In this document: piece after piece, positions 6,498 through 60,308 of the stretch
Position numbering within the stretch: the stretch's first letter is position 1
How the letters are laid out: each line of letters opens with the position of its first letter
Assembly: GCA_008012315.1 (NCBI GenBank)
Contig: SSEL01000012.1
Span: forward strand, 186,001 to 250,000
DNA length: 64,000 bases
Origin: Rhodospirillaceae bacterium
GTDB lineage: Bacteria > Pseudomonadota > Alphaproteobacteria > Dongiales > Dongiaceae
Reading direction: 5' to 3'
Made by a program: the position numbers and the translations under genes
Notes under the pieces: model-generated
Seen by the model: only the letters and a program-made list of their open reading frames with translations
Told to the model about the DNA's origin: nothing
Database searches by the model: none

Positions 6498-8483
6498 TTA
6501 CTGCAGGCTTTCCGCCGGGACGATATCGACCCGGTCGGCGCCGCCGCCTTTCAGCCCAAGGGCCCGGACATCGATCCGCGTAGACCGAACGCCCTTGTGA
6601 TACAGATAGTTCCGGACCTGGATGCCGCGCGACAGCGACATGCGCCGCGCCTTGCTTTCGGTTTCCTCCGTGCCGGACGCGGAAGCCATGACCTGCACGC
6701 GCATATTGGGATCGGCCATCATCTTTTCCGCCAGTTGATCGAGCGCGGCCTGGCTGTCGGCCGGGATATCCGCGCTGTCGGCGGCAAAGGAAATGCTGAG
6801 CTCGACGGCCGTCGGCACCGGCGTCGGGGCCGGCTGTGGCGCCGTCGCGGTCTCGGTCGTCGTCGGCGCGGCGGTTGCTGCCGGAGCTTCCTGCGCGGGC
6901 GCTTCCTGGCTGGCCGTCGCGGTTGCCGGCGATTCGGGAACCGGCGTCTCCGTCGTTTGCGGCGTTGGCGCGGCCGCAGGGGCCGGCGGTTCGGCCGATG
7001 CGGCTGCCGTGGCAGCCGGGGCAGGAGCCGGGGCTGCTGCGGGAGCCGCCGCCGGTGCGGATGCCGGCGCCGGGCTGGCAGCGGCGGTCGCCGACGGCGT
7101 GGTCGGCGTCGTCGTGCCATCCGCATTGGGAATCGGAATGCCGGTGCCTTTCAGCATCTCGGTGGGCGAGGCAACATCGGTCGGGATATCGGTCGGCGGC
7201 GGTGGCGGCGTTTCGCCGACATCCGCCTGGGCGGTCTGTGTCGGCGCATCCGTCGTTGCCGTCGTATCCGTTGCTGTCACATCCGTCGCGGCGGTGCCTG
7301 TTGCCGTGGACTCTGGTGTCGTTTCGGTGCTTGATGCCGCCTCGGTACTCGGTGCTGTCTGGGCGACCTGTGTCGAAGCGGCGCTCACCGCGGCCAGCTG
7401 AACCGGCGCATCGGTCGCAACTGCCGGGCTGCCCGTGGCCACGGGCTCGGCTGCCGCGGCGGTGCCAACCAGGGCGACGCTATTGCCCAGTTGGGTGGTT
7501 TCCGGTTCGCTGCTTGCCGGTTCGGCGCTCGCTTGCGTGGGGGCCGCACCATCGCTGCTGTTTTGGCCGAGCGATTCCTCGGTGCCGGTCGGCGTGGCGC
7601 TGCCGGGCGTTTCCGAGGCGGGCTGTGCCGCGCCGCCAGCATCGCCGGTGCCGGCCGGGGCGGCTTGCGCGACAGCACCGGCAGCATCGGTCTTCGGCGT
7701 ATCGCTTGCTGCGGCCTGCGACTCTTGTTCCGCCGCCGCTGTTTCTGCCGCCTGTGTGGCCGCGGCCGGGACATCCGTTGCAGCCGCTTCTTCGGTCTTG
7801 GGTGTTTCGGCTGCGGCTGCGCTCTCCGTCGCCGACGCCGATGCAGCCGACGTCGATGCGTCGGCGACCGTCGTCACGGCATTGCTTGTCGCTGCATTGC
7901 TCACCGCGGTATCGGCAACTGCCTGGTCCTTCTCGGCGGCCTGCTTCTCGGCGGGCTTGTCGGTGGAAGGCGCGGTCTTGGCCGCTGTTTCAGTGGCTTT
8001 CGGTGCGGCCGCCTTCTTCTTCTTTTTGACGCCCACCGCTTTGTTCTTATGCGTGCCGGGCGCCTTCAAGCGGATGGGTTCATCCTGACCACTGGCTGCC
8101 GCGAGCGTGGAATAGGGGACGAAGCCGGGGGCAACGCCCTGTGTCCCAGCGTAGCCCTGCGTCCCGGCATAACCCGGTGCACTGCCATAGCCGGTTGTCG
8201 CATTCGCGGGGATGAAGGCCGATTTCGGCTTGGCGGCCGGATAAGTGCCGCCTTGAAGCGCAGGCGCGTAGGTACTGCCGGAATAGGCCTGCATCGTCGC
8301 CGTTCCTTGCGGCGCCGTTGCGGGCAGGCTGTCGAGCACATCGTAATTGATGGTGACCTGGCTTGATCCGCTGCCAAAGGCCTGCGCCTGAGACGACGCA
8401 GGCTGCATCATCAGCACCGTGCCGACTGCACCCGTGAGGATAGCTGCCTGCAACCAGAAAAGACGGCCAGACGTCTTCATCAT
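6498..8483 (-). CDS. Large Ala/Thr/Pro-rich secreted protein with degenerate OmpA-like C-terminus
   Basis: With the ATG at 8483 (GGGA about 8 nt upstream) the protein is 661 residues. A TTG codon at 8559-8561 also opens the frame but lacks a good site. It has a signal peptide (MMKTSGRLFWLQAAIL...), a GYxGTQGYAGTQG repeat near residue 105, a Lys-rich KKKKKAAAPK patch near 150, and a low-complexity Ala/Thr/Pro/Glu linker to about residue 560. An OmpA-like fold follows. This C-terminal domain has SKARRMSLSRGIQVRNYL but lacks the usual GHTD aspartate (ASASGTEET instead), so diaminopimelate binding may be lost. It lies upstream of the channel/MotB-like pair on the same strand with a 187-bp gap. 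A periplasm-spanning role is inference. Confidence 0.75.
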   Translation of the reverse strand: MMKTSGRLFWLQAAILTGAVGTVLMMQPASSQAQAFGSGSSQVTINYDVLDSLPATAPQGTATMQAYSGSTYAPALQGGTYPAAKPKSAFIPANATTGYGSAPGYAGTQGYAGTQGVAPGFVPYSTLAAASGQDEPIRLKAPGTHKNKAVGVKKKKKAAAPKATETAAKTAPSTDKPAEKQAAEKDQAVADTAVSNAATSNAVTTVADASTSAASASATESAAAAETPKTEEAAATDVPAAATQAAETAAAEQESQAAASDTPKTDAAGAVAQAAPAGTGDAGGAAQPASETPGSATPTGTEESLGQNSSDGAAPTQASAEPASSEPETTQLGNSVALVGTAAAAEPVATGSPAVATDAPVQLAAVSAASTQVAQTAPSTEAASSTETTPESTATGTAATDVTATDTTATTDAPTQTAQADVGETPPPPPTDIPTDVASPTEMLKGTGIPIPNADGTTTPTTPSATAAASPAPASAPAAAPAAAPAPAPAATAAASAEPPAPAAAPTPQTTETPVPESPATATASQEAPAQEAPAATAAPTTTETATAPQPAPTPVPTAVELSISFAADSADIPADSQAALDQLAEKMMADPNMRVQVMASASGTEETESKARRMSLSRGIQVRNYLYHKGVRSTRIDVRALGLKGGGADRVDIVPAESLQ

Positions 8484-53648: not shown

Positions 53649-54440
<792 letters not shown>

Positions 54441-54442
54441 CC

Positions 54443-54943
54443 ATGGCGGTGAAGCTCGGCACCGGACCCAAACGGGCGCGCGGCGGCCGCCGTCGCGCGG
54501 CGCCGATGGCGGATATCAACGTGACGCCGATGGTCGACGTCATGCTGGTGCTGCTGGTCATCTTCATGATCACCGCGCCACTGCTTACCGTCGGGATTCC
54601 GGTCGATCTGCCCAAGACCAAGGCCGAGGCGATGCAGGATCCCGACGAGCCCCTGGTCATCACCATCAACAAGCAGGGAAAGATCTATCTGCAGGAAACC
54701 GAATTGCAGTTGGACACGGTGGGTCCACGGCTCAGCGCCATCACCAACAACAATCCCGAAGCCAAGATCTTCATTCGTGGCGACAAGGGCATTGATTACG
54801 GCACGGTGATGCAGGTGATGGGTGAACTGACTTCGGCCGGTTTCCGCGCCGTATCCCTGATCGTCGAGACGCCCGGCGGCGATAACAGCCAGTCCGGCAA
54901 TAAGGCCGATACCGGCAACGGCCAGAAAAAATCGACCAATTGA
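54443..54943 (+). CDS. tolR: Tol-Pal system protein TolR
   Basis: The 166-residue protein has a single N-terminal membrane helix with the conserved Asp in DINVTPMVDVMLVLLVIFMI (about residues 25-44), and a C-terminal periplasmic domain (TAPLLTVGIPVDLPKT; MQVMGELTSAGFRAVSLI). It is the proton-pathway partner of TolQ. Confidence 0.97.
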   Translation: MAVKLGTGPKRARGGRRRAAPMADINVTPMVDVMLVLLVIFMITAPLLTVGIPVDLPKTKAEAMQDPDEPLVITINKQGKIYLQETELQLDTVGPRLSAITNNNPEAKIFIRGDKGIDYGTVMQVMGELTSAGFRAVSLIVETPGGDNSQSGNKADTGNGQKKSTN

Positions 54944-54954
54944 GGGTAAATTAG

Positions 54955-55908
54955 GTGAACAAGCCGTCGTCGCCCAGTCAGCGCCCCTTCGGCTTCGGGC
55001 TGATCTTCTCCATCATGCTGCATGTCGGCGTGCTGGGGCTGGTGGTGCTTGGCCTGCCGGTGTTCTGGGAACCGGAACCACTGCCGGAAGCGATCGGCGT
55101 GCAATTGGCGCAATTGTCGGACATCACCGCTGCGCCCAAGGCAAACAAGGTCAATAACGAGAAGATCGTCAAGAAACCGGACGCGCCGAAGGCCGACCAG
55201 CCGAAGAAGGAAGAGCCCAAGAAGGAAGCACCGCCGCCGCCCAATCCGCAGACGGCCGCGCCGCCACCGCCGAAGCAGGAAGAGAGCAAGCCGACACCGA
55301 CGCCGCCCACACCGCCCAAGGAAGAGGAAGCGGAAAAGATTCCCGATCCGGAGAAGAAGCCGGAAGAGAAGAAGCCTGAGGAAAAGAAACCGGAAGAAAA
55401 GAAGCCGGAGAAGAAGGTCGAGAAGAAAAAGCCGGACGAGCCGAAGAAGAAGCCGGACAAGAATGCCGACAAGGAGCTCGATGCCCTGCTGCAGAACGTG
55501 CTGAAGGACACGCCAGCGCCGGAGACCCAGGAGAAGACCAAGAAGAAATCTGCGCCCGCGGCGTCTGAGCAGTCCGAAGGGCCGCAAGCGTCCCAGGTGT
55601 CGGAAATTCCGCTGACGGCTTCCGAGGAAGACGGTATTCGCGCCCAGGTGGAGAAGAACTGGAATCTCGGCAGCCTCGCCGGGTCGCCGAACATGGAAAA
55701 TATCCTGGTGGAGATCCGTGTGACGTTGCAGCCCGACGGCACGGTTACCAATGCCCAGGTCATCAACAGCCAGTCCGACCCGTTCTTCAAGCAGGCCTCG
55801 GAAAGCTGCCTGCGGGCGGTCCGCATGAGCAGCCCGCTCAAGCTGCCGCCGGGCAAGACTTATAACACGATGGTGCTGCGGTTCCGGCCGTCCGAGGTCA
55901 GCTTCTGA
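54955..55908 (+). CDS. tolA: Tol-Pal system protein TolA
   Basis: From GTG 54955 (GAGGG about 10 nt upstream) the protein has 317 residues. It has one N-terminal membrane helix (LIFSIMLHVGVLGLVVLGL, about residues 14-32), a Pro/Lys/Glu-rich extended domain with KKPEE repeats (about 70-175), and a C-terminal TolA-III-like domain (about 215-317) that ends FRPSEVSF. It spans the periplasm to contact Pal and TolB. The last 108 bp are nearly identical to the 3' end of the following lipoprotein gene. Confidence 0.93.
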   Translation: MNKPSSPSQRPFGFGLIFSIMLHVGVLGLVVLGLPVFWEPEPLPEAIGVQLAQLSDITAAPKANKVNNEKIVKKPDAPKADQPKKEEPKKEAPPPPNPQTAAPPPPKQEESKPTPTPPTPPKEEEAEKIPDPEKKPEEKKPEEKKPEEKKPEKKVEKKKPDEPKKKPDKNADKELDALLQNVLKDTPAPETQEKTKKKSAPAASEQSEGPQASQVSEIPLTASEEDGIRAQVEKNWNLGSLAGSPNMENILVEIRVTLQPDGTVTNAQVINSQSDPFFKQASESCLRAVRMSSPLKLPPGKTYNTMVLRFRPSEVSF

Positions 55909-56008: not shown

Positions 56009-56530
56009 GTGCGATACTGGCTAATTGCGCTGCTGGGCCTGCTTGCGGCCTGCACATCGACAGGCAAGTCGAACCCGAATACCAGCTCCGACCAAGACTT
56101 CGAGGCGATGATCCAGAAGTTGGAGAAGGATAAATCGGCGTTCGATTCTTTGGCCGATCCCCAGACGAAATCGGTTTCTTTGGCGGATGAGCAGTCCGAA
56201 GAGCTGCAGGCTTCTGTTGCCCCGGAGATTCCGCTGACGGCTGCCGAGGAAGCTGTGATTCGGGCTCAGATTGAGAAGAACTGGGATCTGAGGGGCACCA
56301 CCGGGGCGCCCGGTTTGGAGAATATCCTCGTGTTAATCCGCGTGGCACTGAAGCCTGATGGCACGGTCATCGAAGCCCAGATCATCAACGACGTGGTCGA
56401 TTCCTATGTCCGTGCGGTTTCGGAAAGCTGTCTGCGGGCGGTCCACATGAGCAGCCCGCTCAAGCTGCCGCCGGGCAAGACTTATAACACGATGGTGCTG
56501 CGGTTCCGGCCGTCCGAGGTCAGCTTCTGA
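56009..56530 (+). CDS. Lipoprotein with a TolA C-terminal domain, tandem paralogue of tolA
   Basis: The GTG at 56009 (GGGGGAGGG 10-15 nt upstream) starts a 173-residue lipoprotein: MRYWLIALLGLLAAC with the lipobox LLAAC (Cys15), a short Asn/Ser/Asp linker, then EIPLTAAEEAVIRAQIEKNWDL... which matches TolA's EIPLTASEEDGIRAQVEKNWNL region and the identical end LKLPPGKTYNTMVLRFRPSEVSF. So it is a TolA domain III anchored by lipid rather than by a membrane helix. It sits between tolA and tolB in the operon. I know of no described counterpart; it could sit in the inner or outer membrane (residue 16 is Thr, 17 Ser, giving no inner-membrane retention Asp). Confidence 0.85.
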   Translation: MRYWLIALLGLLAACTSTGKSNPNTSSDQDFEAMIQKLEKDKSAFDSLADPQTKSVSLADEQSEELQASVAPEIPLTAAEEAVIRAQIEKNWDLRGTTGAPGLENILVLIRVALKPDGTVIEAQIINDVVDSYVRAVSESCLRAVHMSSPLKLPPGKTYNTMVLRFRPSEVSF

Positions 56531-56829
56531 ACTTATCCTGCCCCGCGTCCCGTTCGAGCCTGCGGCAACCGCTCTGTTCCGGCCGGAATGGGGCGGATTT
56601 GAGCCATATTTAGGTCACAATAAAACGGCAATCATTAACCGGACCTGATGCAACCGCGCCGCGTGACGCGGTTCGGTTGCGGTGACCGGGAACAATTCGC
56701 CGCGCGTGGCGTTTGCCCTGCACGGTGCTTTGGGTGGGCTGCCTCTGAAAAGGGCTGCTTGCGAATCCGTGTCCGCCGCTCTAGTGAGAATCGGGATTGT
56801 AAATGCGTGGCGCGACTCTGGGGATCAAT

Positions 56830-58161
56830 ATGAGAGACGAAAGAATGAAGCGGCTTCGGCACTTTCTGATGATCATGGTGGCGGTGGCGATACCGGCCGC
56901 AATAACAGTGGCGGGAAGCCCGGCCAAGGCCGAGCCGGTGATCGATATCACCAAGGGCAATATTGAACCGATGCCCATCGCCATCCCGGATTTCTACGGC
57001 AGCCAAGCCGGTAGCGATATCGCCCGGGTGGTCTCGGCCGATCTTGAACGTTCCGGCCTCTTCAAGCCGATTTCTCCGCAAGCCTTCATCCAGGACAATG
57101 CCTCCCTGCAGCAGGGACCGCGTTTCCAGGACTGGCGGGTGCTGAATGCCCAGGCGCTGGTCAGCGGTGCCGCGCAATCGACCGCCAATGGCCAGATCCA
57201 GGTTCAGTTCCGCCTTTGGGACGTCTATGGCGAATCCCAGATGACCGGCTTCCAGTACAATGCCTCGCAGAATAACTGGCGCCGCGTTGCCCACCAGATC
57301 GCCGACGAGATCTATAAGCGTATCACCGGCGAAGAAGGCTATTTCGACAGCCGTATTGTCTATGTTTCGGAAAGCGGCCCGAAAAATGCGCGGGTGAAAC
57401 GCCTGGCGATCATGGACCAGGACGGGGAAAACCATCGCTACCTGACCGATGGCTCGGCCCTGGTGCTGACGCCGCGTTTCTCGCCGGTCAGCCAGGACAT
57501 CACCTATATGTCCTTTTACAATAATAAGCCGCGCGTTTACTTGTTTAACATCAATACTGGGCAGCAGGAGATCCTGGGCGATTTCCCCGGCATGACCTTC
57601 GCCCCGCGCTTCTCGCCGGACGGCTCCAAGGTCATCATGAGCATGGCCCAGAGCGGCAATACCGATATCTATGAGATGGATACCCGGACCCGCCGGTCGC
57701 GCCGTTTGACCGACAATCCGGCCATCGACACCTCGCCGTCCTATTCGCCGGATGGCAGCCGCATCGTCTTCAATTCCGACCGCGGCGGCGAGCAGCAGCT
57801 CTATGTGATGAACGCCGATGGCAGCGGGGTCCAGCGCATCAGCAAGGGTCAGGGGCGTTATGCGACGCCAGTATGGTCGCCCCGCGGCGACCTCATCGCT
57901 TTCACCCGGATGGCACAGGGCCAGTTCTATATTGGCGTGATGCGTCCGGACGGTTCGGGGGAGCGTCAATTGTCCTCCGGCTGGCTGGTCGAAGGGCCGA
58001 CCTGGGCGCCCAATGGTCGCGTTTTGGCTTATTTCGTGTCGGATCCAAGCGGTCGGACTCAGCTGCACTCGATCGACCTCACGGGCTACAACGAACGTGT
58101 GATGAAAACGCCACTGGACGGCTCCGATCCTGCTTGGTCTCCCTTGCTAAGTAGCCAGTAA
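56830..58161 (+). CDS. tolB: Tol-Pal system beta-propeller protein TolB
   Basis: The start is taken at ATG 56830 (GGGGATCAAT upstream), giving 443 residues; 56803 and 56845 are alternatives. A signal peptide (about residues 1-35, ending AKAEP) leads to the N-terminal alpha/beta domain, then six-bladed propeller repeats with [10 protein letters not shown] and SPDGSRIVF patterns. TolB is the periplasmic partner of Pal and the Tol machine. Confidence 0.96.
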
Positions 58162-58315: not shown

Positions 58316-58816
58316 ATGCGTATTCAACTGATCTCGGCCGTTGCGGCGGCCCTTCTTCTGGCGGCTTGCTCGTCTGACGACGCAGCCACCGGTAACACTG
58401 CCGGCACCAACACCACGGGTACCGATAACAGCCAGGTTGCGGCTGCTTCGGTTGCGCCGGGTTCTGCCGAAGACTTCAAGCAGAATGTCGGCGACCGGGT
58501 TTTCTTTGCGCTCGACCGCTACGACGTATCGGCTGAAGCCCAGCAGCAGCTCCAGAAGCAGGCTGCTTGGCTGCAGCAGTATCCGGCTGTGACCGTCACC
58601 GTCGAAGGTCATGCCGACGAACGCGGCACCCGCGAATACAACCTGGCGCTCGGTGAGCGTCGCGCGAACTCGGTTGCCAACTACCTGACCGCCCTTGGTG
58701 TCGACAAGAGCCGCCTCAGCGTCATTTCCTACGGCAAGGAACGGCCGGAATGCACCGAGTCCAACGAGGCTTGCTGGTCGCAGAACCGCCGCGCCGTGAC
58801 CACGATCAACCGCTAA
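58316..58816 (+). CDS. pal: Peptidoglycan-associated lipoprotein Pal
   Basis: The 166-residue lipoprotein has a signal with lipobox LLLAAC (Cys18) and the OmpA domain with DRVFFALDRYDVSAEAQ, the GHADERGTREYNLALGERRA peptidoglycan-binding core (about residues 97-117) and the C-terminal ECTESNEACWSQNRRAVTTINR. It ties the outer membrane to peptidoglycan and binds TolA and TolB. Confidence 0.97.
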   Translation: MRIQLISAVAAALLLAACSSDDAATGNTAGTNTTGTDNSQVAAASVAPGSAEDFKQNVGDRVFFALDRYDVSAEAQQQLQKQAAWLQQYPAVTVTVEGHADERGTREYNLALGERRANSVANYLTALGVDKSRLSVISYGKERPECTESNEACWSQNRRAVTTINR

Positions 58817-59183: not shown

Positions 59184-60308
59184 ATGACGGACGGTATGAG
59201 CAATCGATTTGCAATGACAGCCGGGACTATTCTTTCAGCGAGGCGGCCGGGCGCCCTTGGCCTCTCCGTGGCCGGGGGACGGCCAGCGAAAGGCTGGGTG
59301 CTGTCCGCCGTGCTCGGTGCCTGTCTCCTGGGTAGCAGTCTCCTGGGCAGCGCCATTTTGCCGCAGTCGGCCCAGGCCGACGAAGTTGACGACCTGCGTG
59401 CCGAAGTTGCCCAGTTACGCCAGCAGTTGCAGGCCATGCAAGGCGGTGGTGGCGGCAACGTTGCCGCCAGCCAGGAAGTCCGGCTGCAGCAGATGCAGCA
59501 GCAGATGGCGACGCTGGAAGGCCAAGTTGAACAGGCCCAGCTTAAATTGAACGATCTCAGCGACAAATTCGACCGGGCGCAGAAGGATAATGAATTTCGG
59601 TTGAACGCGCTGGAAGGCGGCCAGGGTGGCGCCGGCGGCACGGGCGCCATGCCGCAGGCCGGCAACAACCAGCCCGCCAATCCCGATGCCGGCGGCCAGA
59701 ATCCGGCTGCGGCGTCCGGTCAGGCAGCCGGTGCCAATCAGTCCGCTGGCGGCCAGCCGGCGCAAAGCAATGAGCCCCGTATCCTCGGCACGCTGAGCAA
59801 GAACGCGACCTTGCCCCAGGCGCCGGCCGGCGCCGCCGAAGCGGCTGCCGCTGCTGCGGGTGGGACGGCGGCCGCCAATACAGGCAATGCCAATACGGGC
59901 GGCGGCAATATCGTGCTGCCGGGCGAGACGCCGCGCGAGCAATATGAATATGCCACCAGTCTGCTGCAGAAGGGTTCTTATGCCGAAGCGGAAGTGGCGC
60001 TGAAGACCTTTGTCCAGGAACATCCGAACGACGCGCTGACCGGCAATGCGCAATATTGGATCGGCGAGACGTATTACGCCCGCAAGGATTTCAAGAATGC
60101 GTCGGTCGCTTTCGCCGAAGGTTACCAGAAATATCCGAACAGCCCGAAGGCGGCGGACAACCTGTTGAAGCTCGGCATGTCGCTGGGCCTGAGCGGGCAG
60201 AACCAGAATGCCTGCGTCGCCTTGAAGCAGCTCGACAAGAAATTCCCCGATGCCTCCGGCGCCATTAAGGATCGTGCCGGCCGGGCGAAGCAGCGTTTCG
60301 GCTGCTGA
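59184..60308 (+). CDS. ybgF: Cell division coordinator CpoB (YbgF)
   Basis: The 374-residue protein has an N-terminal hydrophobic segment (about residues 39-60) that may be a signal, a coiled coil (ELRAEVAQLRQQLQAMQ... about 70-145), a Gly/Ala/Asn-rich linker (about 145-255), and TPR-like repeats (QYEYATSLLQKGSYAEAEVALKTFVQEHP, about 255-283; YARKDFKNASVAFAEGYQKYPNS). It is the usual last member of the tol-pal cluster and links Pal function to peptidoglycan synthesis. Confidence 0.93.
   Translation: MTDGMSNRFAMTAGTILSARRPGALGLSVAGGRPAKGWVLSAVLGACLLGSSLLGSAILPQSAQADEVDDLRAEVAQLRQQLQAMQGGGGGNVAASQEVRLQQMQQQMATLEGQVEQAQLKLNDLSDKFDRAQKDNEFRLNALEGGQGGAGGTGAMPQAGNNQPANPDAGGQNPAAASGQAAGANQSAGGQPAQSNEPRILGTLSKNATLPQAPAGAAEAAAAAAGGTAAANTGNANTGGGNIVLPGETPREQYEYATSLLQKGSYAEAEVALKTFVQEHPNDALTGNAQYWIGETYYARKDFKNASVAFAEGYQKYPNSPKAADNLLKLGMSLGLSGQNQNACVALKQLDKKFPDASGAIKDRAGRAKQRFGC

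Follow-up and report, generated by a model that had tools for sequence, protein, structure and literature searches.

A putatively lipid-anchored paralogue of TolA domain III between tolA and tolB in a Dongiaceae genome, and its recurrence among Alphaproteobacteria

TolA is the motor-driven protein that holds the bacterial outer membrane in place, and the widely conserved Tol-Pal system to which it belongs has been described with a single energised TolA. At the molecular level, domain III of TolA binds the N-terminus of TolB, which is disordered, through beta-strand augmentation (PMC7066135). This contact is weak, with a Kd of about 40-200 uM; force from the TolQR motor is transmitted through it to free Pal (PMC7066135, PMC7391070). 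Whether and how cells regulate the release of Pal has been raised as an open point (PMC7391070), and a survey of Tol and Ton transducers reports that species typically carry a single tolA (PMC12204202). Detached versions of the domain have been employed as a tool: periplasmic protein is released from E. coli by co-expressing TolAIII fused to a signal sequence (PMC6195910), and exported TolAIII in this organism is traced, as cited in that paper, to Wan and Baneyx 1998. The same paper calls TolAIII a 'pore' and observed cytoplasmic leakage as well, and the mode of action is left unsettled there (PMC6195910). Among natural proteins, VreA (PA0674) of Pseudomonas aeruginosa is exported, has no inner-membrane anchor and bears a TolA/TonB-like C-terminal domain (PMC2729926), and CpoB/YbgF, an exported accessory of tol-pal, occurs as a lipoprotein or as a soluble protein depending on the phylum (PMC12204202).

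The window, that is, the whole stretch of 64,000 nucleotides analysed here, contains an intact tol-pal cluster with an additional gene placed between tolA and tolB. The closest named relatives of the genome are Dongia species, which places it in Dongiaceae or very near that family. The features of the cluster are as follows.

53649..54440, plus strand: tolQ, 263 aa (TIGR02796, 283.6 bits, over the cut-off)
54443..54943, plus strand: tolR, 166 aa (TIGR02801, 138.6 bits, over the cut-off)
54955..55908, plus strand: full-length tolA, 317 aa, with N-terminal TM helix, KKPEE/proline-rich domain II and domain III (TIGR02794, 50.2 bits; TonB_C, 22.9 bits; sequence)
56009..56530, plus strand: putatively lipid-anchored TolA domain III paralogue, 173 aa, GTG start (ORF, sequence, profile scans, AF2, Foldseek)
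56009..56053, plus strand: its signal peptide and lipobox, VRYWLIALLGLLAA followed by Cys15 (56051-56053), which is putatively lipid-modified, with Thr at +2 (sequence and lipobox pattern)
56054..56221, plus strand: its linker, residues 16-71 (AF2 confidence profile, alignment)
56222..56527, plus strand: its TolA domain III, residues 72-173, predicted as helix-strand-strand-helix-strand (AF2, Foldseek)
56803..58161, plus strand: tolB, an ORF of 452 aa in which a later ATG in the same frame may be the real start (TIGR02800, 469 bits, over the cut-off)
58316..58816, plus strand: pal, a lipoprotein of 166 aa (TIGR02802, 150 bits, over the cut-off)
59184..60308, plus strand: cpoB/ybgF-like gene, 374 aa (position after pal; repeat-rich C-terminus of the translation)

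The GTG start of the paralogue is preceded, a few nucleotides upstream, by a strong Shine-Dalgarno-like sequence, GGGGGAGGGA. The encoded N-terminus, VRYWLIALLGLLAAC-TSTG, constitutes a short signal peptide that ends in a canonical lipobox, LAAC, matching the pattern at Cys15, and the n-region, the h-region and the lipobox with its cysteine can all be recognised by lipoprotein criteria. This cleavable-type segment occupies the place of the N-terminal inner-membrane TM helix through which TolA is coupled to TolQR, and the translation is otherwise free of hydrophobic segments and lacks a KKPEE arm. The initial annotation had described an anchor unlike that of TolA on these same grounds, a description that the sequence bears out. 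In place of the long periplasm-spanning domain II and its KKPEE/proline-rich arm there is a linker of about 56 residues, modelled with low AF2 confidence except for a possible helix at residues 28-45; the distal part of the linker still aligns as a homologue of the end of TolA domain II. The +2 residue, Thr instead of Asp, would fit sorting to the outer membrane by the E. coli rule, which may not hold in the Dongiaceae group, and the mature protein is most likely exported, lipidated and located on the inner leaflet of the outer membrane.

As regards the C-terminal part, sequence and structure prediction confirm that the last ~100 residues are TolA domain III, in agreement with the initial proposal of a 173-residue lipoprotein ending in this domain. 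Residues 20-173 of the paralogue align with the TolA of the window at 59% identity, and the AF2 model of the protein reaches a mean pLDDT of 86-96 per ten-residue block from residue 81 to 170. The first seven PDB matches of this model found by Foldseek (2x9a, 6s3w, 3qdp, 3qdr, 1lr0, 1s62 and 4g7x) are all TolA domain III structures from Pseudomonas, E. coli and Vibrio, and some of them are complexes, with a TolB peptide (6s3w), with g3p of a phage or with colicin. For a strongly diverged lipoprotein from a different Dongiaceae genome, AF2 predicts helices and strands in the same order. Profile scores are low: 27.2 bits against NCBIfam TIGR02794 (tolA; cut-off 59.45 bits) and 22.3 bits, barely above the cut-off of 22, against Pfam TonB_2. 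Since the window's true TolA also falls under the TIGR02794 cut-off, this model reaches these bacteria poorly; a search of the genome that carries the window with PF06519 gave no match because that model does not reach alphaproteobacterial TolA.

Compared with the described systems, the paralogue shares with TolA the operon and the fold and sequence of domain III, but it lacks the TM helix and the periplasm-spanning domain II and carries a lipoprotein signal of its own. It resembles VreA in being exported with a TolA/TonB-like C-terminal domain and no inner-membrane anchor, whereas VreA has an N-terminal signalling domain, acts in cell-surface signalling, is encoded outside tol-pal and is only ~9% identical to TolA (PMC2729926); Pfam and NCBIfam scans revealed no N-terminal secretin/TonB signalling domain in the paralogue. 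Like CpoB/YbgF it would be an accessory of the system, but CpoB/YbgF is a TPR/coiled-coil protein that has an unrelated fold and whose gene lies after pal. The divisome lipoprotein DalA of Alphaproteobacteria was also considered as a relative and rejected, its paper naming TolA in a reference only. In the open-access literature, most subscription papers lying outside its scope, no description was found of a second TM-less TolA-III inside tol-pal, which is in line with the initial statement that no described Tol component of this kind was known.

The origin of the gene can be read from its comparison with tolA. The two genes share two direct repeats, both spaced by 622 nt, one of 230 nt at 73% identity and the other of 111 nt at 98% identity, a pattern that excludes a chance likeness. 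Against this 73% background, the two genes end in an 85-nt stretch without a single difference, and beyond the stop codon they are no longer alike:

55824..55908, plus strand: identical 85-nt 3' tract, tolA copy (tolA/paralogue comparison)
56446..56530, plus strand: identical 85-nt 3' tract, paralogue copy, over the last strand and the C-terminal tail (tolA/paralogue comparison)

Taken together, the repeats and the identical tract indicate that the paralogue arose by tandem duplication and that its 3' end was recently replaced by the tolA sequence or has been kept matched to it. As judged from sequence, it derives from tolA, having lost the TM helix together with the greater part of the arm and gained a lipoprotein signal in their place, and the tract would be a sign of recent gene conversion. 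This tract spans the region that receives the N-terminal strand of TolB in the solved complex (PMC7066135). Outside it, the tolA/paralogue pair of the window displays a dN/dS of 0.40-0.42. In trees, the paralogue groups with its own TolA (100/98, and 93/92 after leaving out the C-terminal tract), with a terminal branch of 0.36 versus 0.004 for TolA.

The distribution of such genes was addressed by a census in which a TolA domain III profile was run on 389 alphaproteobacterial genomes, complemented with follow-up searches; its counts are a lower bound at the sensitivity of the profile, which missed a second, very diverged lipoprotein in the tolA-tolB gap of genome G163. Exported, TM-less TolA-III genes linked to tolA were found in 14 genomes of 7 alphaproteobacterial families, 10 of which belong to the 389-genome sample:

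Dongiaceae: the window (lipobox); G003, which corresponds to Dongia deserti (via L073), L031:5734-6153 (lipobox); G010, L032:5339-5782 (lipobox)
Family f36: G243 and G163 (both lipobox)
Family f160: G387 (plain signal peptide)
Family f6: G429 (plain signal peptide)
Family f76: G189, G268 and G472 (plain signal peptide); G092 and G470 (lipobox)
Family f142: G238 (plain signal peptide)
Family f63: G178 (EF-hand-like fusion)

The copies of G003 and G010 are lipoproteins of the same build as that of the window and also lie between tolA and tolB; according to the alignment, the G003 protein has Arg in place of a nearly invariant Trp. A 4-nt overlap of the TolA-III gene with each of its neighbours, tolA and tolB, is seen in G243, G092, G470 and G238. 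For G429, the 2.6 kb that were fetched yielded no tolB. Asp is absent from the +2 position of the listed lipobox-bearing relatives, a feature to be read with the E. coli rule, which may not hold here. The usual arrangement is that of tolB directly after tolA. A tolB match was present in 37/40 fetched regions downstream of tolA, the other three having none within the fetched stretch, and none of the 37 offered both the space and an open frame that a TolA-III gene ahead of tolB would need, the widest gaps holding a frame of at most 69 codons; these 40 regions follow the strongest profile matches and serve as a check, not as an unbiased rate. A motor-less TolA-III after tolA is, consequently, a minority arrangement, and the idea of a gene that always follows tolA, raised in the initial annotation, was rejected, linked copies being present in 3/17 genomes of the family and 10/389 of the sampled class. 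Neither is the gene absent from all relatives, as a recent and unmaintained duplication could be: linked copies recur, mostly by independent duplication. The initial emphasis on the lipid anchor stands for the window copy, which has a lipobox, but not as a defining trait, given that 7 of the linked copies carry a lipobox and 6 a plain signal peptide, both types occurring in one genus. A tblastn search of plasmids for the paralogue gave no match.

Two of these loci show peculiarities of their own. In G163, two consecutive small lipoprotein genes lie between tolA and tolB (L069, 1902-1486 and 1489-1055, minus strand), the first a clear TolA-III and the second very diverged (branch 3.1). In G178 (L061 / L092), the exported second copy after tolA has an EF-hand-like N-terminal part and differs very little in domain III from the TolA encoded before it.

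In trees, linked copies pair with the TolA of their own genome (G387, 100/98; G429, 99/100; G238, 100/98). As this holds for most of them, either the arrangement arose repeatedly or conversion repeatedly homogenises the copies. A single gene inherited within Dongiaceae was rejected, since monophyly of the three linked copies fails the AU test (p = 0.0098), also without the C-terminal tract, further gene conversion being possible. The linked copies of five species of genus g82 form one clade (100/99), and this clade is soluble in three species (L093, L095, L100) and lipid-anchored in two (L094, L099). This variation within the clade indicates that what is conserved is an exported TolA-III without a motor, not the lipid, and the switch within one genus offers a natural experiment on the role of membrane attachment. 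Across all pairs of the five species, the dN/dS of the linked copies is 0.24-0.33, a sign of purifying selection, though of a weaker constraint than the one acting in the same genomes on TolA-III (mostly 0.10-0.16) and TolB (0.02-0.06). Two other members of the genus, G394 and G471, have no linked copy.

Such patchiness, both in the genus and in the 3/17 and 10/389 counts above, together with the separate origins favoured by the trees and the AU test even inside Dongiaceae, would fit a duplicate that is short-lived, poorly maintained and of little or no function, the repeated duplications being the noise of a recombinogenic gene. We regard this explanation as unlikely. Every linked copy has kept its reading frame and gained an export signal, and dN/dS stays well below 1 over the five species. 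Moreover, the window copy has remained open for 173 codons at ~27% divergence, although this is weak evidence alone, a rough simulation of neutral evolution in the divergent part putting the probability of no stop at ~0.09. The repeated rise of motor-less copies in several families suggests a useful role.

Our preferred explanation for this role, advanced tentatively and at somewhat less than even confidence on the basis of sequence, modelling and analogy, is that of a motor-less TolA-III that would bind TolB without pulling it, compete with TolA and tune the mobilisation of Pal. The protein has no motor coupling and could not be driven by TolQR, and it keeps the predicted TolA-III fold together with the C-terminal beta strand, the docking element for the TolA box of TolB. 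The predicted fold and the preserved last strand point to this N-terminal box of TolB as its likely ligand. Pal is unlikely to be bound directly. The paralogue may thereby compete for TolB, or park it near the outer membrane, away from TolQR-driven TolA; competition with TolA had been put forward in the initial annotation and is plausible on mechanistic grounds. The pull of the motor-driven TolA would then be damped, and both the release of Pal from TolB and the tightness of the tie between outer membrane and wall might be tuned. It is from the match between the natural paralogue and the engineered exported TolAIII that we infer this tuning. The natural soluble versions share an export signal and domain III with the tool, which is artificial, over-expressed and soluble, whereas the window protein is natural, chromosomal and putatively lipid-anchored. 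Counting against this reading are the looser constraint on the g82 copies relative to TolA-III and TolB, the lack of a copy in G394 and G471, the Arg-for-Trp change in G003, and the pore and cytoplasmic leakage described for the engineered tool. Preferential retention of the strand that docks TolB is suggested, and only suggested, by a median C/N identity ratio of 1.38 in paralogue comparisons versus 1.04 in TolA pairs, which come from few independent lineages and in which gene conversion could cause the likeness. With still greater reserve, these genes might be viewed as a convergent Tol-Pal accessory of Alphaproteobacteria, in which a motor-less TolA-III, lipid-anchored or soluble, would act as a brake or buffer on TolB-Pal mobilisation and set outer-membrane tethering or vesiculation. 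A competitor of this sort within the tol operon would make the regulation of Pal release, outer-membrane tethering and vesicle shedding testable.

The divergence of the paralogue can also be read in a different manner, as that of a neofunctionalised adaptor that has kept the TolA-III fold for a partner other than TolB, e.g., CpoB, a cell-wall enzyme, the box of a TonB-dependent receptor or an outer-membrane protein. The long terminal branch of the window copy and the weaker constraint in genus g82 agree with this somewhat improbable alternative, as do the unlinked TolA-III-like exported proteins found elsewhere in Dongiaceae genomes and the TolA-III-like lipoproteins encoded away from tolA in other Proteobacteria. 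It accounts less well for the position of the linked copies directly after tolA, often with 4-nt overlaps with tolA and tolB, and for the gene conversion that keeps the last strand of the window copy identical to that of TolA. A decoy for invaders is, in our opinion, very improbable. Strand augmentation is how colicins and the g3p protein of filamentous phages attach to TolA-III (PMC7391070), the predicted fold of the paralogue matches their complexes, and a patchy, repeated origin would fit an arms race in which the decoy binds filamentous phages or bacteriocins without energising their import. However, the paralogue had no match to PADLOC defence models up to E = 1, no prophage or defence genes were seen adjoining it, and the C-terminal part of the window copy has not diverged from TolA.

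Outside Alphaproteobacteria, PF06519 identified unlinked lipoproteins that, like the paralogue, combine a lipobox with a TolA-like C-terminal domain, but their genes lie away from tolA and tolB and the domain is strongly diverged; no literature on proteins of this type was found:

L145:3059-3454: TolA-III-like lipoprotein
L146:2946-3368, minus strand: TolA-III-like lipoprotein
L148:2829-3365, minus strand: TolA-III-like lipoprotein

Small unlinked exported TolA-III-like proteins, some of them with a lipobox, also occur in other Dongiaceae (L037:3555-3947, L038:3051-3416, and L039:3954-4358 and 6812-7222). Finally, contig 5 of G545 carries a TolA-III-like exported protein in three copies with identical match scores, ~12-15 kb apart, one of which is L147:3212-3715.
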